Positions 8,686 through 32,584 of a stretch of 64,000 bases of DNA are shown here, one piece after another. The notes under the pieces are model-generated. The model was given only the letters and a program-made list of their open reading frames with translations, did no database searches and was not told the DNA's origin. Where the stretch lies: NCBI RefSeq assembly GCF_004570865.1, contig NZ_SPQS01000007.1:62001-126000 (forward strand), written 5' to 3'. Every line of letters starts with the position of its first letter. Positions within the stretch are counted from its first letter, which is position 1. This DNA comes from Bradyrhizobium frederickii. Lineage in GTDB: Bacteria; Pseudomonadota; Alphaproteobacteria; Rhizobiales; Xanthobacteraceae. A program made the translations under genes and the position numbers.

Positions 8686-8689
<4 letters not shown>
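7691..8689 (-). CDS. Peptide ABC transporter ATP-binding protein, DppF/OppF type
   Basis: A 332-residue ATPase with Walker [16 protein letters not shown], signature LSGGQRQR-like [15 protein letters not shown] and Walker [13 protein letters not shown]. The C-terminal oligopeptide/dipeptide extension has Cys-containing [10 protein letters not shown]. It starts at the ATG that overlaps the upstream ATPase stop (ATGA), not at an in-frame codon further upstream inside that gene. It is the last gene of a five-gene Dpp/Opp operon and ends against the bidirectional terminator. Confidence 0.93.
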
Positions 8690-9675
<986 letters not shown>

Positions 9676-9706
9676 TGCGATCAGCCTCGATCCATCACAG
9701 GCAACA

Positions 9707-10630
9707 TCACAGGCTTTTGGCCATGCGCGGGTCGAGCGCATCGCGAAGGCCGTCGCCGAGGAGATTCACGGCGAGCACGGTCACGGACAGGAACGCCGCC
9801 GGGAAGAACACGATGTAGGGCTTGACCTGCCACAGCGCGCGGCCCTCGGCCATGATGTTGCCCCAGGACGGAATGGTCGGCGGCGTGCCGGCGCCGATGA
9901 AGGACAGGATCGCCTCGGTGATCATGGCGCTGGCGCAGATATAGGTCGCCTGCACCAGCATGGGCGCCACCGTGTTGGGCAGGATGTGGCGCAGGATGAT
10001 CATCGGCGTGCGCGTGCCGCAGGCGACCGCAGCATCCACGTAAGGCTGCTCGCGGAGCGACAACACGACGCTGCGGACGAGACGGGAGACGCGCGGGATC
10101 TCGGCAACGGTGATGGCGAGGATGACGTTGCCGACGCTGCCCCGTGTCAGCGCCATCAGCGCGATCGCGAGCAGGATCGGCGGGATCGACATCAGCCCGT
10201 CCATGAAGCGCATCAGAATGCCGTCGGCCCAGCGGATAAAGCCGGAGACCATGCCGATGGCAAGGCCGGCAGCAGACGCAAAGATCGCCACCGACAGTCC
10301 GACCGTGAGCGAAACCCGCGCGCCGAACAGCACGCGCGAATAGATATCGCGTCCGAGCACGTCGGTGCCGAACCAGAAATCGGCCGACGGCGCACGCGTG
10401 CGTTTGGCCGGCGCGAGCGCGGTCGGATCGACCGACCCGAGATAGGGCGCAAAAATCGCGATCAGCACCAGCGTCAGCAGCAATGCGCCGCCGATCGCAA
10501 CGGTGGGATGGCCGCGCAAGAACCCGAGGAAGCCGCGCCGGATCGTGACCGGTCGCAGGATTTCAGGCAGTTGTGGTGCAAGGACGAACCCGGCTGGAAG
10601 CGATTGCGGATTGACGGTCGTGTCGGTCAA
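9707..10630 (-). CDS. Peptide ABC transporter permease, DppC/OppC type
   Basis: A 307-residue inner-membrane permease. A long N-terminal cytoplasmic tail with a proline-rich start leads into TM1, followed by the family motif [20 protein letters not shown]. The ATPase-contacting EAA loop lies around [19 protein letters not shown]. It overlaps the DppB-type permease stop by four bases. Confidence 0.93.
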
Positions 10631-11568
10631 TAGCGGATCCTCGGGTCAACGAGCGTGTAAATGACGTCGATCATCAGATTGACGAGGACGTAGACGAAGC
10701 TGAACAGCAGCACGATGCCCTGGATGACGGGATAGTCGCGCCGCAGGATCGCATCGATCGTGAGCCGGCCGAGGCCGGGAATCGCGAACACGCTCTCGGT
10801 CACGACCGCGCCGCCGATCAGCAGCGCGATGCCGATCCCGATCACCGTCACGATCGGCACCGCCGCGTTCTTCAGCGCGTGAATGAACAGGATGCCGCCC
10901 TGCCCGAGGCCCTTCGCCTTGGCCGTGCGGATATAATCCTGCTGCAACACTTCGAGCATGGACGCGCGGGTGATGCGCGCGACCAGCGCGATGTAGACGC
11001 AGCCGAGCGCAATCGCCGGCAGGATCAGGTTTTCCAGCCACGGCCAGAAGCCTGAGCTGAGCGGCGTGTAGCCTTGCACCGGCAGCCATTCGAGCTCGAG
11101 TGCGAAGATGTAGGCGAGCATGTAGCCGACCACGAAGACGGGCAGCGAGAAGCCGAACACGGCAAAGCCCATGATGACGCGGTCGATCAGGCTGCCGGCC
11201 TTCCACGCCGCCACCACGCCGAGCGGCACCGCCACCACGATCGTGAGCAGCAGCGTGACGATCATCAGCGACAGCGTCGGTCCGAGACGCTGCCCGATCA
11301 TCGCCGACACCGGCAGATTGGTGAAGATCGAGGTGCCGAGATCGCCGTGCAGGATGCGCCAGACCCAGCTTCCGAACTGGACCAGGAACGGCCGATCCAG
11401 ACCGAGGCTCTGGCGGATGCGCTCCACATCCTCCGGACTGGCCTGGTCGCCCGCGATCACCACGGCGGGATCACCCGGCGCGATGTAGAGCAGGCTGAAC
11501 ACGAACAGCGCGACGATGGCCATGACCGGCAGGGTCGCGGCGATGCGGCGGAGGATGTAGGAGAGCAT
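10627..11568 (-). CDS. Peptide ABC transporter permease, DppB/OppB type
   Basis: A 313-residue permease with six predicted membrane spans, starting [20 protein letters not shown]. It has the family segment [20 protein letters not shown] and the EAA loop [25 protein letters not shown]. It heterodimerises with the DppC-type subunit encoded next. Confidence 0.93.
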
Positions 11569-11585
11569 CTGGCCTCAGCGCACGA

Positions 11586-13187
11586 TCATGCAGACTTGGA
11601 GACGCCCCAGAAGAACGGCAGCGGCCCCTTGGTGATGCCGGAGACGTTCTTGCGCCACGCAGTGTAGCTCAGGAAGAAGCCCGTCGGCGCGTAGACGACG
11701 TCATCGAGGGCCGCCTTGTTGAGGCGGCCGATGGCGGCCTTCTCCTCGTCGAGGTTCTTGGCCTCGAACCAGGACGCGACCTCCTTCTCCGTGGCGGGGC
11801 TGTTCGGCCAGCCGAACCAGGCCTTGTCGCCGTTGGCGCGAATGGCGGTGTACGGTGCCGGATTGATGCAGTCGGCGCCCGCGTGCCAGGTGTGGAACAT
11901 GTTCCAGCCGCCCTGCCCCGGCGGGGTCTTCTGCGCGCGGCGCGAGCCGACCGTGCCCCAATCGGTAGCGACGAAGTCGACATTCATGCCGAGCCTCTTC
12001 AGCAGGTCGGCGGTGACGTCGCCCAGCGCCTTGGTGATCGGCTGGTCCTGCGCCACGATGCACGTCACTGGCTGCCCGGAATAGCCGCTCTCGGCGAGCA
12101 GTTTCTTGGCCGCATCGAGATCGCGCTTGCCCTTCAGGATCTCGCCGCCCACCTCGCTATAGAGCGGCGTATCCGGCGTGAAGAAGCCGGGCAGCGGCTT
12201 CCAGAGCGCGTTGTCGTCGCCGACGATCGCGCGCATGTAGTCTTCCTGGCTGAGCGCCATCAGCACCGCGCGCCGCGCCCGCACGTCGTTGAAGGGCGCG
12301 AACAGATGGTTCATGCGGAACGAGCCGATATTGCCGAGCGGATCGCCGATGTCGACGCTGATGTTCTTGTTCTTCTTCAGGACCGGAACGAGGTCCGCAA
12401 TCGGGTTTTCCCACCAGTCGACCTCGCCGTTCTGCAACGCCGCGGCTGCCGTGGCCGGATCCGGCATCACGATCCATTCGATGCGGTCGAGCTGCATCTG
12501 CTTGCCCCCGGCAAGCCAGGAGGCCTTCTCCTGCCGCGGCACGTAGTCCGCAAACTTCTCGAACACGGCCTTTGCGCCGGGAACCCACTCGCCCTTGGCA
12601 AACTTCATCGGCCCCGAGCCGACATATTCGGTGATCTGCTTGAACGGATCGGTCTGCGCGATTCGCTCCGGCATGATGAAGCCGCACGGCGAGTTGTTCT
12701 TAGCCAGCGCGTAAAGCATCTTCGGGAAGGGCTGCTTGAGCACCCATTTGAAGGTGCGGTCGTCGACGGCAGTGAGCTCCTGCTGGAGCGCCTTGATCAT
12801 CAATCCCATGGGGTCGCGCGCCGACCAGCGCGTCAGGCTCGCAACGACGTCCTTGCTCAGCACCGGTTCGCCGTCATGAAACTTGAGGCCCGGACGCAAT
12901 TTGAACGTCCAGGTCGTGCCGTCGTCGGTCACTTCCTCGGACTCGACCATCTGCCGCTGCGGCTGAAGCTGCGCATCGATGCCGTAGAGCGTGTCCCAGA
13001 CCATCGCGGCGGCATTGCGCACGACATATTGCGTGCCCCAGATCGGATCGAAATTGGCGAGATTGGCCTGGGGCACGAAGCGCAGGGTGCGGGCTGATGC
13101 GCCTTGCGCGATCGCCGGGGCCGAGAGGCCGGTCAATGCCAGACCGCCCGCCCCAGCCAATCCCTTCAATACGGTCCTGCGATCCAT
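11586..13187 (-). CDS. Peptide ABC transporter substrate-binding protein (SBP family 5), Tat-exported
   Basis: A 533-residue extracellular solute-binding protein family 5 member. The start has GGGAGG upstream and gives a twin-arginine signal (DRRTVLKG), a hydrophobic run and an AIAQG cleavage region near residue 28. The mature part has ANLANFDPIWGTQYV, the DGTTWTFKLRPGLKFHDGEP motif and LYGIDAQLQPQRQM. Tat export implies it folds before translocation. It is the first gene of its operon; no regulator adjoins it. The open frame continues upstream of this ATG, but without SD or signal logic. Confidence 0.92.
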   Translation of the reverse strand: MDRRTVLKGLAGAGGLALTGLSAPAIAQGASARTLRFVPQANLANFDPIWGTQYVVRNAAAMVWDTLYGIDAQLQPQRQMVESEEVTDDGTTWTFKLRPGLKFHDGEPVLSKDVVASLTRWSARDPMGLMIKALQQELTAVDDRTFKWVLKQPFPKMLYALAKNNSPCGFIMPERIAQTDPFKQITEYVGSGPMKFAKGEWVPGAKAVFEKFADYVPRQEKASWLAGGKQMQLDRIEWIVMPDPATAAAALQNGEVDWWENPIADLVPVLKKNKNISVDIGDPLGNIGSFRMNHLFAPFNDVRARRAVLMALSQEDYMRAIVGDDNALWKPLPGFFTPDTPLYSEVGGEILKGKRDLDAAKKLLAESGYSGQPVTCIVAQDQPITKALGDVTADLLKRLGMNVDFVATDWGTVGSRRAQKTPPGQGGWNMFHTWHAGADCINPAPYTAIRANGDKAWFGWPNSPATEKEVASWFEAKNLDEEKAAIGRLNKAALDDVVYAPTGFFLSYTAWRKNVSGITKGPLPFFWGVSKSA

Positions 13188-13417
13188 GGAAGTCCTCCCA
13201 GTAATGCCGTGATGCTGGCCATCGTTGGCCAAGAGTAGTTGAAACCAGAGCCCATTCGCTTGCAAATGGTATGCCACTAACCGGCCCTTCGCCAGCAGGA
13301 TCTCATCGCGATTTTGAGCCGCCCGGGGCCTCAAAGAGTTGTCGCCAGCGTTGCGATCCACGAGGGTACGATCGCAGAGCGTGTGCACCGCGTCGAGATC
13401 GCGGCTGGTTCGCCCGG
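13188..13417. other. Intergenic region, 230 bases
   Basis: It separates the peptide-transporter binding-protein gene from the 3' end of the PepSY gene. It must hold the promoter of the peptide operon. A small palindrome TGGCCA-TCGT-TGGCCA (13216-13231) is the only clear symmetry. I find no convincing gene, promoter boxes or terminator in it. Confidence 0.4.
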
Positions 13418-14842
13418 TCAGACCATCAGAGAGAGCCGCAAGCGGCGCCAGCCGATGACGACGCCGGTCATGGAGAACGCGAAACCCAGCGCACAGAGCC
13501 CGACGATCACGATATCGCGCAATCGTGGATGCGCCATGAGGACCGGGAAATCGAGCGTGTGCAGCGCGCTGTAGAACCAGCGATAGGCGCGCCGCGAGGC
13601 GTCCAGCCGTTGCAGCACCTGGCCGCCGGCACCGTCGATGTCGAGCCAGAGATCGCCGCAGCGCGCGCGGTAGACGGGTGCTCCGGGAACGGCGGAATGC
13701 GCGGGATAATCGTCGCTTCCGGCAACAACGGACGGCGTGCCGCATCCGGCGGCGAGCCGCACCGCGAGCCCCTCGACCTCGCGCGCGGTCAGAAATTCCG
13801 CGCGGGAGGCATCCCCCGCCATGGCCAAGGTCTGGACGCCGAGGGCGGAGCGATCGCGGCGATAGACATGACCGCCGAAGGCGAACCATTCAACCTCGCG
13901 GACCGACGATGTTGTCGGCTGTCGATCGAATGACGGGGCCGCCGTCCAGTCCGGTGCCGCGTTCATCACGCCGGCTTCGGTGGGGCTCAGCTCCCCGCGC
14001 GAGAACAGCCGGCCGTGATCCATCGAAAGCCAGCCGCTGAAAATCCAGGTCAACACGAAGACCGTTACTGCAAGGCCAACGAGGTGATGCAGCGCATGCC
14101 AGCCGCGGTAGGGCGTCGAGATCCGGCGATCTCGCATCCTGATCCGCACCATCCCGAGCAACGCGCCCAGCGAAGCCGCGAGCAAGGCCAGCAGCGACAG
14201 CGTCCAGACGACGCGATCCCACAGCGACCAATTGCTCCGCAGGACCGTGGGATAGATCCAGTGCAGCACACTGCCGGCCCAATTCCAGCCGCGCTCGCCT
14301 CGCGTCGTATCGAGGACGACCTCGCCGGTGCGCGACGACAGATAGATCTCCGTTCCAGCGGCATCGCCGAGCGCGATGCGAAACAAGGGCCGATGGCGGT
14401 CGAAGCCGTTCGGCACGCTCCATTGATCGTAATCTTCCAGCGCGACGATCCCGGCCCGCGCGGCATCGAGCCCGCGGCGGCGGGCGTGATCTTGCGCGAT
14501 GGCGAGCGCGAGATCGGCAGACATCAAAGCTGCGTCCTGCCCGTCGGCGGCACGGACCGCACGAACGCGCGATGACCCCGACACGATATAGACCGATCCC
14601 CCGCTCCGCTGGACCAGACGCACGCGCGTGGCATCGATGACCCCGCTCGCGGCGACTGCGTCGGCGATTGAGATCCTTGCTTCCGCGTACACCACCGGCG
14701 CAAGGCCGGCAAAGCGCTCCGCTTCCGTCAGCGACGGAAACGGAACGAAGTGCATCACGATACCGGTCGCGAACCACATCGCGAACAGCAGGCAGAACGC
14801 GACCCCTAGCCAGCGATGCAACAGGACGACCGCGCCCAGCAT
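13418..14842 (-). CDS. PepSY-associated transmembrane protein
   Basis: A 474-residue membrane protein of the PepSY_TM (FsrB/PiuB-like) group. Hydrophobic segments lie at about 10-30, 210-232, 250-272 and 445-468, separated by two periplasmic domains. Membrane-adjacent histidines (HRWLG at 9, GIVMHF at 31, LHWIYP near 193, WHALHHLVG near 246, ALHTLDFP near 426) fit the di-haem or quinone-linked arrangement proposed for this family. Members reduce ferric siderophores delivered by TonB receptors. Here the gene starts 12 bases after the receptor stop and shares its B12-riboswitch-controlled mRNA. A role in releasing cobalt or corrinoid cargo by reduction is therefore possible, but it is inference. 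Confidence 0.85.
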   Translation of the reverse strand: MLGAVVLLHRWLGVAFCLLFAMWFATGIVMHFVPFPSLTEAERFAGLAPVVYAEARISIADAVAASGVIDATRVRLVQRSGGSVYIVSGSSRVRAVRAADGQDAALMSADLALAIAQDHARRRGLDAARAGIVALEDYDQWSVPNGFDRHRPLFRIALGDAAGTEIYLSSRTGEVVLDTTRGERGWNWAGSVLHWIYPTVLRSNWSLWDRVVWTLSLLALLAASLGALLGMVRIRMRDRRISTPYRGWHALHHLVGLAVTVFVLTWIFSGWLSMDHGRLFSRGELSPTEAGVMNAAPDWTAAPSFDRQPTTSSVREVEWFAFGGHVYRRDRSALGVQTLAMAGDASRAEFLTAREVEGLAVRLAAGCGTPSVVAGSDDYPAHSAVPGAPVYRARCGDLWLDIDGAGGQVLQRLDASRRAYRWFYSALHTLDFPVLMAHPRLRDIVIVGLCALGFAFSMTGVVIGWRRLRLSLMV

Positions 14843-14854
14843 GCGGTCAGCGTC

Positions 14855-17212
14855 CTACCATTTGAACGCCGCCGAGAGCTCGTAGGTGCGCGGCGCGCCA
14901 AGGAGGATCTGGTCGGGATAGAACGGATCGCCCCAGATCGCATAGCGCTTGTCGGTGACGTTGCGGACGCGGAAGGTCAGGCGGGCCTGGTCGACTGCGT
15001 TGAACACCGTCTTGGGGATGTCGACGAAGGCATAGACGTCGGCCACGGTGTAGGCCTTCATCGTCACGACATTGGCATCGGTGTTGTAGCGGTCGCCGAC
15101 ATGGCGGCCGGTGATGCCGAGCTCCACCGGCCAGGGCGTGAAGAAGCGCCAGGACGCGCCGGCATTGGCGACGATGCGCGGGACGTTGGGCGGCGTGTTG
15201 CCGGAGAACGAGCCGCCAACGAAATTGTAATCGGCATAGCGCGCATCGACATAGGCGATGTTGCCCCAGAGCCGCAGCGGCTCGATCGGGCGCACGGACG
15301 CCGCAAGCTCGACGCCTTTGGACTCCTGCCGCCCGGCGATGTTGAGCGCCTGTCCGCCGGCCGCGGCATAGACGTTCCTGCGCACGATATCGTAGGCCGA
15401 GAACGACCACTCCGCCCGGTTGTCCCAGAACAGATGCTTGACGCCGGTCTCGTAGGTGCGTGCGGTGGTGAGGTCCAGCGGCTGGGTCGGCGTGAGCAGG
15501 AAGATGTTGTTGGCCGACACATCCGCGCCGGTCGCGTACTGGCTGAAGAAGGTCAGGCCGGGCACGGCCTCCCAGGTGTAGCCGATGCGCCCCGTCACAG
15601 GCGCCCAGTCCTTCGTGTACGGGAAGCCTGCTTTCTCCAAGCCGCTCTTGTCGGTCGAGTTGCGATCGAGTCCGATATGCTCGACGCGGATGCCGCCGAT
15701 CAGCGCGAAGGTCCGGGTCAGCTTCAGCCGGTCCTCGAACGAGAGGGCTTCGTTGTCGATACGCGCAGTCTGTTGCTGCGTCGTGAGAAGGCCGTAGAAG
15801 CCGCGGTTGGGATCGACCAGGGAAACGGAATCGCCGGGGAAATTGGCCGCGCCCGGCCTGACGAAATCGAGATAGCTCGAGGACAACGTCGTGACCAGCC
15901 GATTGTCGAAACCTGCGATGTTCGTGTCCCAGATCAGGTCGGTGATGTTGCCGACGAGACGCTGGCTGTGTGCGACGTAGAAGCGCTCGCGATCGACCAG
16001 GTTCGTTCCGGAATTGAACGCCTCGACCTCGTTGTTGAACCAGCTGCGTTCCGCGCCATAGCCATAGGCCTGACTTTTCAGCGTGAGATCGGGCGCGAGC
16101 TTCAGCTCGAAGCCGCCACGCAGCCAGACTTCCTGCGCGACGTTGCGATTGTCGAGGACGTTGTAGTTGGTGTTGAAGGTGCGGTCGTCGATGGTGACGG
16201 CGCCGAGGTCGGTCTTGTTGTAGTTCGAGACGTAATTGCCCGAAACGATCCCGCTCGTCGCATGCGAGCCGCTGAAGGCGATCGGCACCAGCGGCGCGCC
16301 CCAATAGGCCTTCGAACGGTCCTCGCGATATTCGATCGCGCCCCAGACCTTGAGGCTGTCGGAGATGCGGTAGTTGAGCTGGCCGGACACATCCAGCATC
16401 TTGGTGTTGGTGTCGTCGGCAAAGCCGTTGAGCGCGGAGCGGCTGACGTCGAAGCGGTAGTCGAGGCCTTGCACGTTGGTGCTGCCGCCCGAGCCGTAAT
16501 GCGCGCGGAACGAGTTCAGGGAATCCCAGGAGAAATCGGCTTCGTTCCGGATCGGTCCCGTGTGCGGCTGCCTGGTGACCAAATTGATCGCGCCGCCCGC
16601 GGCCCCCTCGCCCGAGATCAGCGAGGCCGGGCCTTTCAAGAATTCCACGGCCTCCAGATTGGCGGTGTCCATGATCCGCGAGGTCATGTTCTGCGGGCCG
16701 ATCTTGATGCCGTTGTAGAGCGTGTTGATCTGGCTGTTGGTGAAACCGCGCATCGAGAAGGCGGAAGGCTCGGCCGGATTGTCACCGGAGGTGACGCCGA
16801 CCGCGCCCTGGGCCACGTCGGAGACGGTGCGATAGCCCTGCTCGCGCATGGTCTCGGCCGAGATCACCTCGACGGTCGCGGGCATCTCGCGCACCGTCAG
16901 GCCGAGCCGCGAGGCGCTTTCGGCCACGGCATTGCTGTTAAGCGGCGTCTGCGCCGTCGCAGCCGGGGCGAGGGGCTTGGGCGCTGCGGATGCGGCAGCA
17001 GGCCTGCGCGCCGCCGCGCGGCGTGGGCCTTGCGCCTCCCGGCCGGCTGATCTGGCTGGCTTGCGGGATTGCGCGGGCGACACTTCGACCGGCGGCAGCG
17101 GTTCGCGAGCCTGCTGCGCCTGTGCGGCGGGCAGATCGAGCGCTGCAAAGAACGTGAGAGCCGCGGAAGCAAGCAGGAAATGGCGCGGTCGGAAGATGCG
17201 GATGGAAGACAC
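14855..17212 (-). CDS. TonB-dependent outer-membrane receptor under B12 riboswitch control
   Basis: A 785-residue receptor. It has a signal peptide (about 1-32, ending AAQAQ), then an Arg/Ala/Pro-rich linker to about residue 90. The plug follows, with MPATVEVISAETMREQG, SAFSMRGF and LEAVEFLKGPASLISGEGAAGG, and then the beta-barrel ending YELSAAFKW. By these motifs it looks like a ferric-siderophore receptor (FhuE/FcuA group) rather than a short BtuB. The start is GTG with GAGG nine bases upstream. The cobalamin riboswitch and SD-sequestering hairpin in its leader argue that its cargo is a corrinoid or cobalt complex. It is the first gene of a two-gene operon with the PepSY protein. Confidence 0.92.
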   Translation of the reverse strand: MSSIRIFRPRHFLLASAALTFFAALDLPAAQAQQAREPLPPVEVSPAQSRKPARSAGREAQGPRRAAARRPAAASAAPKPLAPAATAQTPLNSNAVAESASRLGLTVREMPATVEVISAETMREQGYRTVSDVAQGAVGVTSGDNPAEPSAFSMRGFTNSQINTLYNGIKIGPQNMTSRIMDTANLEAVEFLKGPASLISGEGAAGGAINLVTRQPHTGPIRNEADFSWDSLNSFRAHYGSGGSTNVQGLDYRFDVSRSALNGFADDTNTKMLDVSGQLNYRISDSLKVWGAIEYREDRSKAYWGAPLVPIAFSGSHATSGIVSGNYVSNYNKTDLGAVTIDDRTFNTNYNVLDNRNVAQEVWLRGGFELKLAPDLTLKSQAYGYGAERSWFNNEVEAFNSGTNLVDRERFYVAHSQRLVGNITDLIWDTNIAGFDNRLVTTLSSSYLDFVRPGAANFPGDSVSLVDPNRGFYGLLTTQQQTARIDNEALSFEDRLKLTRTFALIGGIRVEHIGLDRNSTDKSGLEKAGFPYTKDWAPVTGRIGYTWEAVPGLTFFSQYATGADVSANNIFLLTPTQPLDLTTARTYETGVKHLFWDNRAEWSFSAYDIVRRNVYAAAGGQALNIAGRQESKGVELAASVRPIEPLRLWGNIAYVDARYADYNFVGGSFSGNTPPNVPRIVANAGASWRFFTPWPVELGITGRHVGDRYNTDANVVTMKAYTVADVYAFVDIPKTVFNAVDQARLTFRVRNVTDKRYAIWGDPFYPDQILLGAPRTYELSAAFKW

Positions 17213-17217
17213 GGCTG

Positions 17218-17264
17218 GAAACCTCGGTATGACGTCAGTGGCACGTCACAGCGAACGAGGTCTC
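17218..17264 (-). promoter_or_regulatory. SD-sequestering hairpin (riboswitch 1 expression platform)
   Basis: On the minus-strand RNA, GAGACCUCG (17264-17256) can pair with CGAGGUUUC (17226-17218), a 9-bp stem with one G-U. The 3' arm contains the GAGG Shine-Dalgarno of the receptor gene, and the loop holds a second small stem (TGACG/CGTCA). This indicates a translational off-switch downstream of the cobalamin aptamer. Confidence 0.7.
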
Positions 17265-17340
17265 ACCCTTGGCCTTGCGGCCGTCCGATGAAGCCGAATG
17301 TCTGTACTCCCCGACCGACATCTTCGCGTGTGACCACGGC

Positions 17341-17514
17341 TGACGGCAGGTCTCCTGGCTCGCGGGTCATCACCACTTCGTCGCCTTCCCGGGACCGAGG
17401 ACCCAGTGGCTTCTGACGAAGGATTATCCGCTCACAGTTGCGGGGGCAGCCACGGCATTGGGGACAACGTCCCCGCACCGCATTCCCTTTTCATCCCCTC
17501 TCGGGGAAACCGTC
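17341..17514 (-). ncRNA. Cobalamin riboswitch 1 (receptor/PepSY operon)
   Basis: The minus-strand RNA shows the aptamer landmarks in order. These are a GGGAAUGCGG entry, CCCCCGCAACUGUGAGCGG, GCCACUGGG, CCCGGGAAGGCGAC, and the B12 box GCGAGCCAGGAGACCUGCC (17365-17345). The ends can pair as P1 (GACGG with CCGUC). It lies about 130 bases upstream of the receptor start. Confidence 0.95.
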
Positions 17515-17519
17515 GCGAG

Positions 17520-17549
17520 CATCTAGGATTACCGTCACGACAGAGTCAA
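17520..17549 (-). promoter_or_regulatory. Probable sigma-70 promoter of the riboswitch-1 transcript
   Basis: TTGACT (17549-17544) and TAGATG (17525-17520) are separated by 18 bases. Transcription from here would begin at about 17513, which coincides with the 5' end of the aptamer P1 stem. The -10 is a weak match. Confidence 0.45.
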
Positions 17550-17601
17550 TGTGCCAGTTGCGGCGTTATTGCCACAGCGACCAACTTCCTTGGAGATGAG
17601 C

Positions 17602-18174
17602 ATGGAAGGCGAGACCTTCCTCTGGCTGATACGGCATGCGCCGGTCGATGGCGTCAAAGGGACGATCCATGCCGCCGATGCGCCGGCCGATCTCCGCGAT
17701 CGCGCGCAACTGGAGGCGCTGCGGCAGCGCCTGCCGCGGGACACTGCGAGCTACGCCAGCCCGTCGCGGCGCACGGTCGAGACGGCGCGCGCGCTGGGGC
17801 ACGAACCGGAGCAGGTCAGCGAATTCCGCGAGCAGGATTTCGGCGACTGGACCGGCCATCGGCACGACGCGCTCGCTGCCGCGGGCGGCGAGGCCTATGC
17901 GCAGTTCTGGAACGATCCGGCCGGCGGACGGCCGCCGGGCGGCGAAAGCTTTGCGGATCAGGTCGCGCGCGTGCAGCTCGGTCTGTCGCGGATCGGAGCG
18001 GGACCAGCCACGCTCATCGTGCATTCCGGCACCATCCGCGCCGCGCTGTGCATCGCGCTCGATCTCACGCCACAAGCCGCCTTGCGCTTCGTGATCGAGC
18101 CGCTGTCGCTGACCCGGATCGATCGCCTCGCGGCCGGCTGGCGCGTCGTCTCGGTCAATCAGCGGATCAGCTAG
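17602..18174 (+). CDS. cobC: Histidine phosphatase, probable alpha-ribazole phosphatase (CobC)
   Basis: A 190-residue member of the histidine phosphatase (phosphoglycerate mutase-like) superfamily. The phospho-accepting His is in LIRHAPVD near residue 9, the Arg in SPSRRTVETA, the acid in EFREQDFGDWTG, and the second His in VHSGTIRAAL. The match to CobC/PhpB and the cob neighbourhood suggest dephosphorylation of alpha-ribazole-5'-phosphate or adenosylcobalamin-5'-phosphate. I chose the ATG six bases after GGAG; an in-frame ATG two codons earlier has no spacing. Its last 8 bases overlap the end of the convergent cobT. Confidence 0.82.
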   Translation: MEGETFLWLIRHAPVDGVKGTIHAADAPADLRDRAQLEALRQRLPRDTASYASPSRRTVETARALGHEPEQVSEFREQDFGDWTGHRHDALAAAGGEAYAQFWNDPAGGRPPGGESFADQVARVQLGLSRIGAGPATLIVHSGTIRAALCIALDLTPQAALRFVIEPLSLTRIDRLAAGWRVVSVNQRIS

Positions 18175-20019: not shown

Positions 20020-20697
20020 TTAAGCTGCGTTGTGCAGGCGCGGGGTGACGAGGCCGGGCGCGGTGACGCCGCGCAGCGACTTCGCCAGCGCCAGCACGGC
20101 GAGATCGGCGAGCGGCTCGATCACGATCACCAGCGCGTAGGAAGCCGCAAACGTCGCGATGCTGGCGAGGTTGCTCATCGCAAAGCCGGAGCCATAGAGC
20201 GCCCAGAACGCCACCCAGGCGATCACGCCGGCCTGATAGGTGGTCGACAGCGCCAATGCCTGCCGATACTTCAGGTCGACATAGGCCGTGTTGCGCGGAA
20301 TGATCCGCGTGGCGATCGCCTGGATCGCGAACAGCGGCACCAGCAGCGTCGTGACGTTCATGCCGTATTGCGGCAGGTCGGCCGGCTCGAACAACACGCC
20401 CTGAAGCAGCAGGCCGAACGCGAGGCCGAAGGCCGCGGGCGCAGCACCGAACAGCAGGAACAGCGTCGAGCCGAGGATGAAGTGCACCTCGGAGACGCCG
20501 ACCGGGAAGTGCGGCAGGATCTCGAAGAAGGTGAAGACGAGGATCGTGGTGGCGAGCGTCCGCGCCGCGAACGAGCCGATGCCCTGCTCGCGCACAGTCT
20601 CGGCTGCGAGCTTCAAGGCAACGCCGCCTGCGGCGATGCCGGTTGCGTAACTCAACACGAGCTTGGCGCCCGTCACTACCCCGGGTTCGATATGCAT
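20020..20697 (-). CDS. cbiM: CbiM-like cobalt transport permease (ECF-type)
   Basis: A 225-residue membrane protein that starts MHIEPG, the N-terminal metal-binding signature (His2) of CbiM/NikM substrate-specific components. About six hydrophobic segments follow, including FPVGVSEVHFILGSTLFLL, the CbiM landmark around the conserved His. It would bring Co2+ across the inner membrane. No cbiN, cbiQ or cbiO adjoins it, so it is an orphan S-component in this window. SD AAGGA lies eight bases upstream. It has its own cobalamin riboswitch. Confidence 0.85.
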   Translation of the reverse strand: MHIEPGVVTGAKLVLSYATGIAAGGVALKLAAETVREQGIGSFAARTLATTILVFTFFEILPHFPVGVSEVHFILGSTLFLLFGAAPAAFGLAFGLLLQGVLFEPADLPQYGMNVTTLLVPLFAIQAIATRIIPRNTAYVDLKYRQALALSTTYQAGVIAWVAFWALYGSGFAMSNLASIATFAASYALVIVIEPLADLAVLALAKSLRGVTAPGLVTPRLHNAA

Positions 20698-20747
20698 GGC
20701 TCAGATCCTTCCTGCCGTCACACCCGACGGCCTTGGCCTCAAAACGT

Positions 20748-20913
20748 GCAGGGCCGGTCTCCTGGCTCGCGGTTCACTGGTTCTCCGGCCTTCCCGGACC
20801 TTGCGGCCCAGTGGCTGATCGGAGCCCCTCACCGCTTACAGTCGCGGGGGCGGCTGGGGTTTTGGGCGCCGCAACTTGGTCCGCCCATCCCCATTCCCGA
20901 TTATGCTCCGGCG
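20748..20913 (-). ncRNA. Cobalamin riboswitch 2 (cbiM)
   Basis: The minus-strand RNA contains GGGAAUGGGG, CCCCCGCGACUGUAAGCGG, GCCACUGGGCC, CCGGGAAGGCCGG and the B12 box CCGCGAGCCAGGAGACCGGC (20772-20753). The ends GCCGG and CCGGC can form P1. The leader then has a GCCGTC/GACGGC hairpin (20731-20714) directly abutting the cbiM SD. No extensive SD-pairing arm is obvious; CCUGC/GCAGG is a weak candidate. Confidence 0.94.
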
Positions 20914-20997
20914 CTTTGCGCCGCGTCGAGCACCTTGCCGCTCCTGTGTGCCCCTTTCGCCGAGCCTGCGTCAAGGGGCGAGGCGCGCCCGAGACAA

Positions 20998-28176: not shown

Positions 28177-29339
28177 CAGTTCCCTCCCACCAGGATGGAG
28201 GGGTCGCTGACGATGTCGGCGCCGTTGAGGCCACGCAGGACCGGCTCATCGCGCGTCGAGCCGTCGCGAACGAGATCGAAGCCGGCACGCGTCGCAACCA
28301 GCGTGACTGCGGCCGTGCCGGAATGGGCACAGCCTTTGCCGCAGCCCGAGACGTGCAACCGCGCATCGGCGGCGATGCGCGGCGCGAGCGCCGCGGCCAG
28401 CGCGCGCGTATCGGCATGGGCTTCGCGGCAGCGCGGCGCGCCGCTGCAGGCGATGACGCGCAACGCAGGATCGAACGGCTCGGTGATGAGGCCCGGCGCG
28501 CTCGGCATCTCGCGCTTGCCTTCGCTCAGCAGCATCCGCCAGGGCGTCATGCGCAGCGCGTGTCCGCAACCGGCGAACTGATGCAGCGTCGTGTGCAGCA
28601 TCTGCCCGAACGCAACGCCGACCATCGCGCCTTGCGGATAGTGCCCGGGCCGCGAGGCGGCCATCACGGGCGCAGGCTCGGTCTCGCCGCGCAGAGATTG
28701 AGGCAATGCCGCACCGGACGCGATGTGGGCCGCCATCCGCCCTCGCCCGCTCCTCGCGCCGCCGGAGACCAGGAACCAGCTTGCGAGCGCCAGCGCCGTG
28801 CTCACGGCCTCGCCGCGCGCGACGGAGCGGCCAAGCCTCGCACCGTCGGCCCGCACCAGGAGACGGCCCGAGCGATCGCGCTCGATGCGGATGTCGGCGG
28901 AATCGCCGACGAGGACCCGTGACCTTCCGTCATCGATGGCGAACCCGAACTTGGTCGGAAGAGCGAGGCCGCTATCGGCGAGCGCCTCCTCCAGCTCGGC
29001 AGCCAGCGACTGCGTTTCGTCGCCGCCGCCCCAGAACGGCATCACCAGAATGTTGCGCCGAGCTTCGATCTCGGCGTCGGGGTCGAGCAGCGCCAGTTGT
29101 GCAAGGCCGTCGAGCAGCGGCCGATGGCCTTGCTCGCTGACGCCTCTGATCTGGAGATTGGCGCGGCTCGTGACGTCGATCAGGCCATTGCCGTGCCGCC
29201 CGGCGAGCTCGGCAAGCCCGGTGATCTGTGGGGGTTCGAGGCGCCCGCCGAACGGGCGCACCCGCACCACGAGCCCATCGCCCGACAGCATCGGACGCAG
29301 CGCGCCGGGACACCAGCCCTTGACCGCGGCCGCACTCAT
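28176..29339 (-). CDS. cobG: Precorrin-3B synthase (oxygen-dependent)
   Basis: A 387-residue member of the sulfite/nitrite reductase-like family. The N-terminal ferredoxin-like repeat has GLIDVTSRANLQIRGV. The 4Fe-4S ligands are in CSGAPRC and SGCGKGCAH. CobG hydroxylates precorrin-3A at C20 with O2, so the pathway here is aerobic. The start overlaps the cobN stop (ATGA, 29336-29339); in-frame upstream codons lie in cobN. No alternative monooxygenase (CobZ) is seen. Confidence 0.94.
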   Translation of the reverse strand: MSAAAVKGWCPGALRPMLSGDGLVVRVRPFGGRLEPPQITGLAELAGRHGNGLIDVTSRANLQIRGVSEQGHRPLLDGLAQLALLDPDAEIEARRNILVMPFWGGGDETQSLAAELEEALADSGLALPTKFGFAIDDGRSRVLVGDSADIRIERDRSGRLLVRADGARLGRSVARGEAVSTALALASWFLVSGGARSGRGRMAAHIASGAALPQSLRGETEPAPVMAASRPGHYPQGAMVGVAFGQMLHTTLHQFAGCGHALRMTPWRMLLSEGKREMPSAPGLITEPFDPALRVIACSGAPRCREAHADTRALAAALAPRIAADARLHVSGCGKGCAHSGTAAVTLVATRAGFDLVRDGSTRDEPVLRGLNGADIVSDPSILVGGN

Positions 29340-32300
29340 GAGGCCTCCCGCAGCGCCGCGGCGATCGAGTTGCGACGCGTCTGCCACAACGCCGCATCGT
29401 GCAGGCGCGCAAAACAGGTCTGCATCGCGGCGAGCGCCGACGGATTTTCGCGCGCCATGAAAGCACGGATATCGTCATTGCCGAGCGTCGCATCGTAATA
29501 GAGATCGAACAGATGTGGCGGCACGGCGCCGGCAAGATGGGCGAAGGCGGCCATGTGCTCCAGCGTCGCGGCGATCTCGGCGGCGCCGCGAAAACCATGA
29601 CGCATCATGCCGGCGATCCAGGCCGGATTGGCGGCGCGCGCCCGGACGACGCGGGAAATCTCCTCGGTCAGCGTACGCGCGTGCGGCTGTTCGGGACGTG
29701 TCGTGTCGAGGTGATAGAGCGCCGGTCCTGCCGCACCGAGATGCGCTGCGGCCGCCGCAATGCCGGCTTCATGCGCGGCATAGTCGGCGGCGAGCAGCAG
29801 GTCGGTTTCCGGCAAATCCTGGACGTGGACGAAGGCGTCGGCAGAGGCAAGCCGCGCCTCGATCCCGGCGCGATCGTGCTGCATCTCGCCATCGACCGCG
29901 AATGCCCAGGACGAGGCCGACAGCCAGGCTTCGCCGGCGGCCTCGCGCGTCTCCGGCGTGAACGCATCGGGGATCGCCGAGAGGCCGACACCATATTGGC
30001 CGGGACGCGGCGCGAACACACGGGAGACGCGGTGGCGATACGGATTCTCCTCGCCCTCGTCCTCGCGCGCGGCGAGCGCCTCGGAGGCGGCCTCGAACAA
30101 TTGCGCAAGGCCCGAAAAAACGTCGCGGAACAGGCCCGACACCCGCAACGTGACGTCGATGCGGGGGCGGCCGAGCTCGGCCGGGGCGATGATGTCATAG
30201 CCGGTGACGCGGCCCGAGGCGTGATCCCAGCGCGGCGCGAGGCCGGCCAGATGCAGCGCCATCGCAAATTCCTCGCCCGCCGTGCGCATCGTCGCCGAGC
30301 CCCAGAGATCGACGACGAGGCCCTTCGGCCAGTCGCCATGATCCTGCAGGTGACGGCGCAGCAGCTCCTCGGCGAGTTTTATCCCTTGCGCATGCGCCGA
30401 CGGGGTCGGCACCGCGCGCGGGTCGACGGCAAAGAGATTGCGCCCGGTCGGCAGCACGTCCTGGCGGCCGCGATAGGGCGAGCCCGACGGCCCGGGTGCG
30501 ACGCGCTTGCCGCCAAGTGCGGAACGCAGCGCATCGCGCTCGGCGTCGCCGCAGGCGCCGCGGCCGAACACATGGAGGCCGTCGCCGAACTGGCTTTCCT
30601 TGAGATCGCAGACGAAGCGATCGATCCGTGGAATGGCTTCGGCCGGCGCGGCCGAGGCATCGAGGCCGAGATCGTCTTCGAGACCTGCCGCGCGTGCCTC
30701 GTCGCGGATCGCCGCGATCAACCGCTGGCGGCGCGCGGGATCGAGACCATCGGCGGTCGAATATTCGTCGAGCAGACGTTCGAGCCGCCGCAACCCCTCC
30801 GGCACCACAGATTGCGCGAGCGGCGGCGGCAGATGGCCGATGGTGACCGCACCGATGCGGCGCTTGGCCTGCGCGGCTTCACCGGGATCGTTGACGATGA
30901 AGGGATAGATGACGGGCAGATCGCCGATCAGCGCTTCCGGCCAGCACGCGGACGACAGCGCGACGGATTTTCCGGGCAGCCATTCCAGCGTGCCATGCGC
31001 GCCCATATGCACGACGGCATCGATCCCCTGCGCGCGGAGCCAGAGATAGAACGCGACATAAGCGTGGCGCGGCGTGCGGGCGAGATCGTGATAATCGGCA
31101 TCGCGCGTGACCGCATCGCCCCGCTCCGGCTGCACCGCGATGATGGACCGGCCGCTTGCGATGGCCGCGAATTGAAACGCACCGCCGTTGCAGCTCGGAT
31201 CGATTTCCGGCGCGCCCCAGGCCTGCGCGAGATCGTCTTGCAGGGATTGCGGCAGGCGCGAAAGGGCCGCGCGATAATCGGCCACGTTCCAGGCGAGCTT
31301 CTGCTTCAAGAGAGTCCCACCGAGTGCTTGAACCGGCGCAGCAGCGAAGCCGGCCTCGGTGAGATCGGACAGTAATGCTTCCACCGAAGCCAGCGCATCG
31401 AGCCCGACCGCATGCGCGATCTGGTGCGGCCGACCCGGATAATTCGAGAGCACGATCGCCACCCGTTTCTCGGCGGCGGGCTTCTGTGCAAGTCGCCGCC
31501 AGGCCGCAACGCGCGCGGTGACGGCCTTGACGCGCTCATCGTCGGGCCCGTGCGCCAGATGGGCGAATTGCAGATCGGGATCGCGCATCCCTGCCGACTT
31601 GAAGCTCACAACGCCGGCGAACAGCCGGCCGTCGACCTCGGGCAGCACCACATGCATCGCGAGATCGCCGGGCGAGAGACCTCGCAGCGACTCTGCCCAA
31701 TCCTCGCGCCGCGCCGTCGAGAGCGCGACCTGGAACACCGGACAGGATGCGGCATCGAACGGCGTCGTGCCATCGTCGCCGATGGCCGAGAACGCCGTCG
31801 CATTGACGATCGCGGCCGGAGGATTATGCGCGAGATGCGCGCGCAACCAATCGGCAACGCCCGGCGCCTTCAAAGAGGTGACGAACGCGCCATATGCGTC
31901 AAAGCCCTTCTCGCGCAGCGCGGCGATCAGGGCATCGACCGGGCCTGCATCTGCGGCGGTAAGGTACGAGCGATAGAACGTCACCAGCGCGAGCGGCCTG
32001 TCCTCACGCGAGGCCGGCGCAGCAATGACGCCGCGCGTGGGATCGTAGAAGCCCATCTCCGGCACGGTCAGCTCGCCGGTGACGGGCCCGGCATAAAGCC
32101 CCGAGGCCAGTGCGAGCTGCGCGATCGCCGCTTGCGCGGCGACCGGGCCGCCGGTGTCGCAGAGCACCTTGAGCCGGCGCAGCGTCGAGACCGGCAAGGT
32201 CGAATATGAATCGAGCCGCGTGTCATCGCGACCGTCGGCCGGCAGCACGGCGAGCACGATGTTGCGGTCCTTCGCGAGCTGTTGGAGCGCAGCGAGCCCG

Positions 32301-32584
32301 TATTGCCAATAGGATTCGCCGCCGATCAGCCGCACCAGAATGCCGCGCGCCTGCGACAGCGTCTTTTCGATGTAGGTGTCGACGGACAGCGGATGACGCA
32401 GCTCCGCGAGATTGGCGAGCCGCAGCGACGGCAGGCTATCGCGGCCCCGGCGCCAGCCGGCAGCGAACGCGGCAAGGTCGGAATCCGAATACGAGAGCAC
32501 CACGAGATCGGCCGGGTCCTGGCCGATGTCTCTGGGTGTCGCGGTCTCCTCCAGACCGCGGCTCTCGCGGAAGACGACGTGCAT
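29336..32584 (-). CDS. cobN: Cobaltochelatase subunit CobN
   Basis: A 1082-residue large subunit of the ATP-dependent aerobic cobaltochelatase, homologous to the magnesium chelatase H subunit. It has HMGAHGTLEWLPGKSVAL, VIYPFIVNDPGEAAQAKRR and the C-terminal YGVGLSAIPDAFTPETREAAGEAW. It inserts Co2+ into hydrogenobyrinic acid a,c-diamide together with CobS and CobT (AAA-type subunits), which are not in this window. It is preceded by cobW, whose stop overlaps its start by one base, which implies coupled synthesis. Confidence 0.95.
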   Translation of the reverse strand: MHVVFRESRGLEETATPRDIGQDPADLVVLSYSDSDLAAFAAGWRRGRDSLPSLRLANLAELRHPLSVDTYIEKTLSQARGILVRLIGGESYWQYGLAALQQLAKDRNIVLAVLPADGRDDTRLDSYSTLPVSTLRRLKVLCDTGGPVAAQAAIAQLALASGLYAGPVTGELTVPEMGFYDPTRGVIAAPASREDRPLALVTFYRSYLTAADAGPVDALIAALREKGFDAYGAFVTSLKAPGVADWLRAHLAHNPPAAIVNATAFSAIGDDGTTPFDAASCPVFQVALSTARREDWAESLRGLSPGDLAMHVVLPEVDGRLFAGVVSFKSAGMRDPDLQFAHLAHGPDDERVKAVTARVAAWRRLAQKPAAEKRVAIVLSNYPGRPHQIAHAVGLDALASVEALLSDLTEAGFAAAPVQALGGTLLKQKLAWNVADYRAALSRLPQSLQDDLAQAWGAPEIDPSCNGGAFQFAAIASGRSIIAVQPERGDAVTRDADYHDLARTPRHAYVAFYLWLRAQGIDAVVHMGAHGTLEWLPGKSVALSSACWPEALIGDLPVIYPFIVNDPGEAAQAKRRIGAVTIGHLPPPLAQSVVPEGLRRLERLLDEYSTADGLDPARRQRLIAAIRDEARAAGLEDDLGLDASAAPAEAIPRIDRFVCDLKESQFGDGLHVFGRGACGDAERDALRSALGGKRVAPGPSGSPYRGRQDVLPTGRNLFAVDPRAVPTPSAHAQGIKLAEELLRRHLQDHGDWPKGLVVDLWGSATMRTAGEEFAMALHLAGLAPRWDHASGRVTGYDIIAPAELGRPRIDVTLRVSGLFRDVFSGLAQLFEAASEALAAREDEGEENPYRHRVSRVFAPRPGQYGVGLSAIPDAFTPETREAAGEAWLSASSWAFAVDGEMQHDRAGIEARLASADAFVHVQDLPETDLLLAADYAAHEAGIAAAAAHLGAAGPALYHLDTTRPEQPHARTLTEEISRVVRARAANPAWIAGMMRHGFRGAAEIAATLEHMAAFAHLAGAVPPHLFDLYYDATLGNDDIRAFMARENPSALAAMQTCFARLHDAALWQTRRNSIAAALREAS

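Follow-up and report, generated by a model that had tools for sequence, protein, structure and literature searches.

What does a TonB-dependent receptor import when it is encoded together with a PepSY_TM membrane protein and placed behind a cobalamin (vitamin B12) riboswitch? This question is raised by a 64,000-nucleotide stretch (hereafter, the window) of the 8.29 Mb, 145-contig genome of Bradyrhizobium frederickii, the minus strand of which carries such a unit, composed of the riboswitch, the receptor P0001 and its partner P0002 (Table 1). A sequence-only reading of this DNA had offered three answers, namely, a corrinoid receptor with a periplasmic reduction step, uptake of a chelated cobalt source, and an iron system captured by B12 regulation. 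Here, we describe a comparative analysis of the unit and its relatives that favors the second of these, given the kinship of P0001 with CrtA, a copper-chelate receptor that likewise has a PepSY_TM partner, and the copper-, B12- and zinc-type control found among its relatives. The unit is probably a cobalt-acquisition operon for B12 synthesis that combines a chelate receptor with a heme-dependent reductase and is turned off by coenzyme B12.

Table 1. The riboswitch-controlled unit and features of the adjoining B12 synthesis cluster, with positions in the window
Feature	Positions	Strand	Support
Cobalamin riboswitch aptamer (RF00174)	17328-17529	minus	Rfam 135 bits, E 8.1e-34, model positions 1-189 complete
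Possible expression platform, hairpin CCTCG...CGAGG	17222-17260	minus	Minimum-energy fold of 17190-17350
TonB-dependent receptor P0001, CrtA-related, 785 amino acids	14855-17212	minus	Pfam Plug and TonB_dep_Rec barrel
PepSY_TM membrane protein P0002, 474 amino acids	13418-14842	minus	PF03929 36.4 bits, cut-off 28.8
Second cobalamin riboswitch, 5' of CbiM-like gene and cob genes	20735-20952	minus	Rfam 100.3 bits
CbiM-like protein, candidate inner-membrane cobalt step	20020-20697	minus	PF01891 62.2 bits
CobN, aerobic cobalt chelatase subunit	29336-32584	minus	TIGR02257 1059.8 bits with frame neighbours, cut-off 822

The claim that a receptor-PepSY pair stands under a cobalamin riboswitch holds up well: the aptamer scores 135 bits against an RF00174 gathering score of 31.5, P0002 exceeds the PF03929 cut-off, and the arrangement is conserved, as detailed below. 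The riboswitch is followed, 115 bases from the end of the aptamer, by the receptor gene, and the start codon of the PepSY_TM gene lies 12 bases beyond the receptor stop. The hairpin predicted in the leader would hide the sequence CGAGG, a likely ribosome-binding site located 9 bases 5' of the GTG start, which is consistent with translational repression; its action as a translational expression platform is suggestive only, given a z-score of -1.77 and an equally good fold in 9 of 200 shuffles of positions 17190-17350. Scans of positions 13150-17700 for promoters and terminators yielded nothing better than shuffled sequences.

A survey of riboswitch-PepSY combinations, as advised in the sequence-only reading, demonstrated that the arrangement recurs well beyond the window (loci and genomes are designated below by L and G numbers). 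Among 149 genomes of the same family, 29 contain a match to P0002, the source genome included. With G130, which contains a match of only 67 residues, left out, an Rfam riboswitch lies directly 5' of the receptor-PepSY pair in 24 of 27 same-family loci, which excludes chance. The three exceptions are a pair without a riboswitch (L048), a PepSY gene without a receptor of this kind (L069) and a locus at a contig edge (L070). In wider surveys, the PepSY protein turned up in 8 of 385 genomes at the level of the class and in 30 of 398 at that of the phylum. These two surveys contributed 28 loci, 25 of which were scanned with Rfam and three (L112, L129 and L133) with a B12 pattern only; riboswitch and pair occur together in 9 of the 25, no riboswitch was detected in 15, and in the remaining one (L127), the riboswitch is weak (48.5 bits) and the receptor is of another, more BtuB-like kind. 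The latter locus (L127:2649-6978) encodes a receptor with 168.4 bits to TIGR01779, below the cut-off, next to the PepSY gene, so that PepSY proteins may also partner another receptor type.

The B12 pattern, calibrated on Rfam, recovered 33 of 34 positives, none of 18 negatives and no hits in 445,717 shuffled bases; its match at 6118-6202 of L133, which lies 3' of the receptor and comes from the pattern without an Rfam scan, was excluded from the counts. A scan of named genomes covered 80 loci, the top-ranking ones among at least 509 relatives, and the nearest receptors to P0001 came from Bradyrhizobium species; B. betae and B. manausense are examples of species that have the unit together with its riboswitch. 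All 11 riboswitches at outlying pattern-positive loci were confirmed by Rfam; these loci belong to a Nitrospina bin, Filomicrobium, two Methylobacillus, Variovorax, Cupriavidus, Peristeroidobacter, Rhodoplanes, Methylorubrum, Sphingobium and Pseudomonas, and three of them (Cupriavidus, Rhodoplanes and Pseudomonas) show no PepSY match 3' of the receptor. The unit is found, then, in other Alpha-, Beta- and Gammaproteobacteria and in one Nitrospina bin. Across all B12-type receptors, 3 of 67 lack a PepSY match on the 3' side (L171, L178 and L213), with 2.2 kb of contig remaining in the case of L171. In one locus (L130:4734-10889), the receptor of the unit is apparently duplicated, with two related receptors in tandem accompanied by a single riboswitch and a single PepSY gene.

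The closest relative of P0001 with a solved structure provides a clue to its cargo. The best match in a PDB sequence search is 9rvq (E 2.2e-70, residues 63-781), which is CrtA (BfrG) of Bordetella pertussis, described as an importer of chelated copper (PMC12914433). A PepSY_TM gene reportedly follows more than 75% of crtA loci, and the essential H358 of CrtA shares a site with Y130, W265, E337, Q356 and R395 (PMC12914433). P0001 resembles CrtA over the full length and in the order of receptor and PepSY_TM genes, and four of the six site residues are kept (W265, E337, H358 and R395), with E395 and H415 of P0001 aligned to E337 and H358. The two proteins differ in that P0001 falls in a separate clade, has P and V for Y130 and Q356 (the placement of position 130 is unsure in the larger alignment), and has a B12 riboswitch in place of the cruR leader. 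H358 is conserved in 125 of 129 distinct receptors, and 128 of them have E or D at position 337. Residue 265 varies with the type of control, being E in all three Zur types and W, F, Y or L in the 67 B12 types. P0001 has no close paralog in its own genome, where the next receptor reaches 117.9 bits compared to 1300 for P0001 itself.

By comparison, the affinities of P0001 to other receptor classes are looser. Its earlier description as "siderophore-type" was only partly apt: similarity to the siderophore receptor model TIGR01783 extends over the full length, but the score, 179 bits, is below the cut-off of 223.5. FhuA, the runner-up in the PDB search (E 7.9e-25), matches in two shorter stretches. 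BtuB is, like P0001, a TonB-dependent receptor under a cobalamin riboswitch; however, P0001 scores 61 bits against the BtuB model TIGR01779 (cut-off 599.7) and 36 bits against a second one (cut-off 836), and BtuB matches only its plug in the PDB search (E 3e-4). Structural comparison with BtuB, which had been proposed as a check, was performed on a model of P0001 with a predicted local distance difference test score (pLDDT) of 82.7. The 50 rows shown consist of siderophore, heme, colicin and B12 receptors with Z scores of 35-43; because the BtuB structures, at 39, stand alongside Fiu and FhuA, at 40-43, the fold alone cannot pick the cargo. The absence of 9rvq from these 50 rows has no bearing on the kinship with CrtA.

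The control of the relatives is more informative. From 132 receptors, we dropped 3 duplicates to obtain the 129 distinct ones, with L111, L119 and L127 (different receptor) excluded before labelling. Among the 97 that are paired with a PepSY gene, 64 are preceded by a B12 riboswitch, 16 by a cruR-like leader and 3 by a Zur-like box, 2 reside in a cob operon, and 12 carry no label; because the queries were centred on the window clade, these counts are not frequencies. The cruR-like label denotes a short frame with a C-terminal R[AGS][PS]P within 1250 bases 5' of the receptor, at 871 and 818 bases in the cases of L190 and L208, and three such frames, when compared to Pfam, gave two matches to DUF2946 and one without a match. 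The Zur labels (3 rows), the cob-operon labels (2) and the label of the second L130 receptor were assigned by hand. The B12 and cruR labels do not mix: only 2 of the 67 B12-type receptors (L066 and L116) have a frame with the cruR pattern, 713 and 1055 bases away, and no frame of the cruR type, with its terminal R[AGS][PS]P, was found 5' of the window receptor.

Mapped on a tree of 101 rows, obtained by a quick search with support from the Shimodaira-Hasegawa-like approximate likelihood ratio test (SH-aLRT) only, the labels require 13 changes, compared to a mean of 32.1 when shuffled. CrtA of B. pertussis and six relatives form one clade (100/100) and the window clade is separate (100/100), with the same result in the 101-row tree; membership in the CrtA clade was judged here by the tree, whereas the published test is a similarity network. 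Control changes between close relatives. The receptor of Methylobacterium gregans, which has a cruR-like leader, is nested among the riboswitch types of Methylobacterium, and a Zur-type clade of three Bradyrhizobium genomes is sister to riboswitch types inside the window clade. Of the two copies in genome G710, one falls in the CrtA clade and is preceded by a cruR-like leader, whereas the other resides in a cob operon, next to CobO and CobN. The window-type receptor of Bradyrhizobium and a second riboswitch-type clade (L062 and G138) are both found beside cob genes, as if one were replacing the other.

The three Zur-type pairs are preceded by the palindrome AATGTAATGTTATAACATTACATT or a near copy. 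Allowing up to 3 mismatches, the core of this palindrome occurs at 6 sites in G122 and 3 in Bradyrhizobium sp. BTAi1, the reversed core at none in these two genomes, and the palindrome is missing from the genome of the window. Apart from the sites of the receptors themselves, the core lies, according to the translations, next to a ZnuA-like gene, COG0523 GTPases, other receptor-like genes and a Fur-family gene, the product of which is closest to Zur, with 91.2 bits against a cut-off of 167 and 32.6 bits for the next model. In Caulobacter, TonB receptors with similar boxes have been described as a Zur regulon (PMC4176598). We considered the possibility that the Zur form occurs where CobN was lost and rejected it: a CobN match is lacking in G122, whereas Bradyrhizobium sp. 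BTAi1 and B. aeschynomenes each contain one that exceeds the cut-off. Two more pairs, from Xanthomonas albilineans (L150:3705-4670) and Sphingomonas (L149), adjoin COG0523 GTPases and are possible further zinc-type members; the Zur-like pattern was not found at either. A receptor family that swaps copper-, B12- and zinc-type control while keeping its partner is most simply a family of metal-chelate receptors.

If the metal taken up by the riboswitch-controlled members is cobalt, cobalt insertion would be its destination, and the distribution of the cobalt chelatase subunit fits. CobN (TIGR02257) matches were detected in 52 of 53 riboswitch-bearing genomes (49 over the cut-off) and in 16 of 31 genomes with riboswitch-free pairs (11 over the cut-off), with Fisher p values of 2.5e-7 for matches and 4.0e-8 for those over the cut-off, both inflated by kinship among the genomes. 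These counts omit G021, G662, G353 and G781, in which the receptor is absent or of another kind. Of the 64 riboswitch-type pairs, 23 have genes of the cob pathway no more than 4.5 kb from the receptor, compared to none of the 16 cruR-type pairs. In the window itself, the pair adjoins a B12 synthesis cluster at 18167-39743, in which CobT, CobF, CobA and CobB, like CobN, were identified by hidden Markov models and the remaining cob genes were named by eye. The CbiM-like protein of this cluster, without CbiQ, might be an orphan substrate unit of an energy-coupling factor transporter or a secondary transporter.

The same genome contains six cobalamin riboswitches; the other three, outside the window, precede a lone BtuB-like receptor and genes that read as classic B12-independent substitutes, namely, metE (L008:6525-9083) and nrdAB (L009:576-3640). 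The lone receptor (L007:6663-8900, contig C59), unpaired and with a riboswitch of its own, reaches 82 bits to TIGR01779, for which the cut-off is 599.7. The genome has two FecCD permeases and no third, in surroundings that, judging from translations, are heme-type and siderophore-like; neither being in a B12 setting, there is no visible BtuCD route for a corrinoid. No recognisable BtuC was found in this genome, although a far diverged importer is possible. On the other side of the unit, 230 bases 3' of the PepSY gene and on the same strand, lies a peptide/nickel-type ATP-binding cassette (ABC) transporter (8686-13187), the binding protein of which has 89.6 bits to NikA (cut-off 393).

The partner, P0002, is a putative heme protein. 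Its histidines H9, H194, H252 and H428 are invariant in all 35 aligned rows, P0002 included, and probably bind heme. In the AlphaFold model (pLDDT 90.2), the best solved structural match is the ferrioxamine reductase FoxB (7abw), with a Z score of 11.4 compared to 6.6 for the next row. The two differ considerably, with 18% identity and a high root-mean-square deviation, 10.5 over 281 residues, and a PDB sequence search with P0002 returned no match up to E 10. The PepSY_TM protein encoded in the crtA operon, CrpH, has been reported to require H200 and H444, on the periplasmic side, for function, and its invariant histidines occupy FoxB-like positions (PMC13038864). P0002 resembles CrpH in residing in the operon of a CrtA-type receptor and in having four invariant histidines; judging from their order along the chain rather than from an alignment of the two proteins, H194 and H428 are likely counterparts of H200 and H444. 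It differs in its B12 control, whereas CrpH is tied by the authors to copper and heme-copper oxidases.

We can now outline how the unit might operate. Abundant coenzyme B12 would bind the riboswitch and turn the operon off, a direction expected from the riboswitch class. When B12 is scarce, P0001 would bind a small chelate, probably a carboxylate-rich cobalt complex, in part through H415 and E395, and energy supplied by TonB would move it into the periplasm. There, the putative hemes of P0002 would pass electrons to the periplasmic face and help to free the cobalt, the simplest release step being conversion of inert Co(III) chelates to labile Co(II). Such a reduction is an attractive proposition, given the inertness of Co(III) complexes and the ability of FoxB-like proteins to reduce chelates of Fe(III). 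The metal could then cross the inner membrane, perhaps via the neighbouring CbiM-like protein, to be inserted by CobN. The steps of this scheme do not carry equal weight. Chelated cobalt is the likely cargo of P0001, whereas, granted this cargo, the chances that P0002 acts as a metal reductase are roughly even.

Several observations weigh against this scheme. Bordetella crtA and crpH mutants are reported not to phenocopy each other (PMC13038864). In Variovorax ginsengisoli, riboswitch and pair are present with no CobN match, and, over a distance of 4.5 kb, cob genes are absent around 41 of the 64 riboswitch-type pairs. No CbiQ (PF02361) was detected in the genome of the window (0 matches), and the CbiM-like gene, present in 7 of the 12 named riboswitch-bearing loci of the window clade, is missing from the other 5. 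H358 is found in 31 of 32 relatives without a PepSY match and is missing from 3 of the 67 B12-type receptors, and thus marks the wider family, not the cargo. The Zur-type pairs retain all four heme-type histidines. Given that zinc undergoes no reduction in cells, metal reduction is the weakest step of the scheme; either a different metal is the cargo of the Zur-type pairs, or the target of the PepSY protein is the ligand or lies elsewhere.

How do the alternatives fare against the same evidence? In one of them, the cargo of P0001 would be a corrinoid, such as B12 or cobinamide, and the partner would reduce the corrinoid cobalt or strip an upper ligand in the periplasm. This fits the classical placement of btuB under B12 riboswitches (PMC7689651), the PepSY gene beside a more BtuB-like receptor in L127, and the occurrence of the unit without CobN in V. 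ginsengisoli. However, it has to contend with scores far below both BtuB cut-offs, with two FecCD permeases outside any B12 setting, with a separate unpaired BtuB-like receptor that has its own riboswitch, with Zur-like and cruR-like control of close relatives, which is ill-suited to a corrinoid family, and with CobN matches in 52 of 53 riboswitch-bearing genomes. These findings weaken the corrinoid reading, and we consider it unlikely. A capture by B12 control of a ferric-siderophore receptor and its reductase, the third of the original suggestions, gathered little positive support and appears highly improbable: the full-length similarity to TIGR01783, the Z scores of Fiu and FhuA, and FoxB as the top structural match of P0002 all agree with it, but the TIGR01783 score falls below its cut-off, BtuB structures match almost as closely, so that the fold is not decisive, and no Irr-box-like site was found in the window using a motif of the Irr type, the iron contexts of relatives not having been systematically searched.

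Two further explanations follow from the kinship with CrtA. The receptor could be a broad scavenger that takes up several divalent-metal chelates, with B12 control reflecting cobalt as the limiting metal. A possible role as a low-selectivity scavenger of carboxylate chelates has been suggested for CrtA (PMC12914433), and the readiness with which control switches among relatives agrees with such a role, but the variation of residue 265 with control type hints at some selectivity, and we regard this explanation as rather improbable. Alternatively, the unit could be a copper system like CrtA and CrpH, in which B12 control would serve as a switch between B12-dependent and copper-dependent metabolism. 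The CrtA kinship and the shared PepSY partner speak for it; however, the window clade lies outside the CrtA clade, the cruR pattern turns up in only 2 of 67 B12-labelled receptors, in frames at least 713 bases away, and the surrounding genes are cob genes, not copper genes, so that there seems to be very little room for a copper function.

A cobalt-chelate receptor would have precedents of a kind. Cobalt has been proposed as the cargo of Daro_1684, of a Novosphingobium aromaticivorans receptor and of IcuA (META1_1076) of Methylobacterium extorquens, all TonB-dependent like P0001 and compared with it here by description. The N. aromaticivorans receptor is described as having a B12 riboswitch, as P0001 does, whereas IcuA is followed by a CbiK/COG5266-like protein rather than by a PepSY_TM protein. 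Genetic support for TonB-dependent cobalt uptake has been reported for IcuA of Methylobacterium (PMC2732905, PMC2773004). A 2021 review, which lists cobalt importers under riboswitch control along with one receptor predicted to be controlled in this way, states that confirmation of a cobalt-specific receptor in the outer membrane was still lacking (PMC7689651). The main texts of the CrtA and CrpH papers contain no term beginning with "cobal" (PMC12914433, PMC13038864), and no paper that brings PepSY together with both a TonB-dependent receptor and a cobalamin riboswitch was found in the open-licence part of PubMed Central, an earlier mention in subscription journals being possible.

The unit described here presents itself as a widespread cobalt-receptor candidate that comes with its own sensor of B12 and a reductase-like partner. 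It widens the CrtA/CrpH family beyond copper and respiratory oxidases, given that 66 of the 97 PepSY-paired receptors are B12-controlled or reside in a cob operon and 3 have a zinc-type box, the latter raising the question of why a heme protein is retained in a zinc-controlled system. More tentatively, and at odds that we put below even, receptor-PepSY pairs may constitute one toolkit that has been rewired for copper under the CruR leader, for cobalt under the B12 riboswitch and for zinc under Zur, in which case the pair in Bradyrhizobium frederickii would do for cobalt what ferrisiderophore uptake does for iron, inert Co(III) chelates being reduced in the periplasm by a heme-driven reaction.

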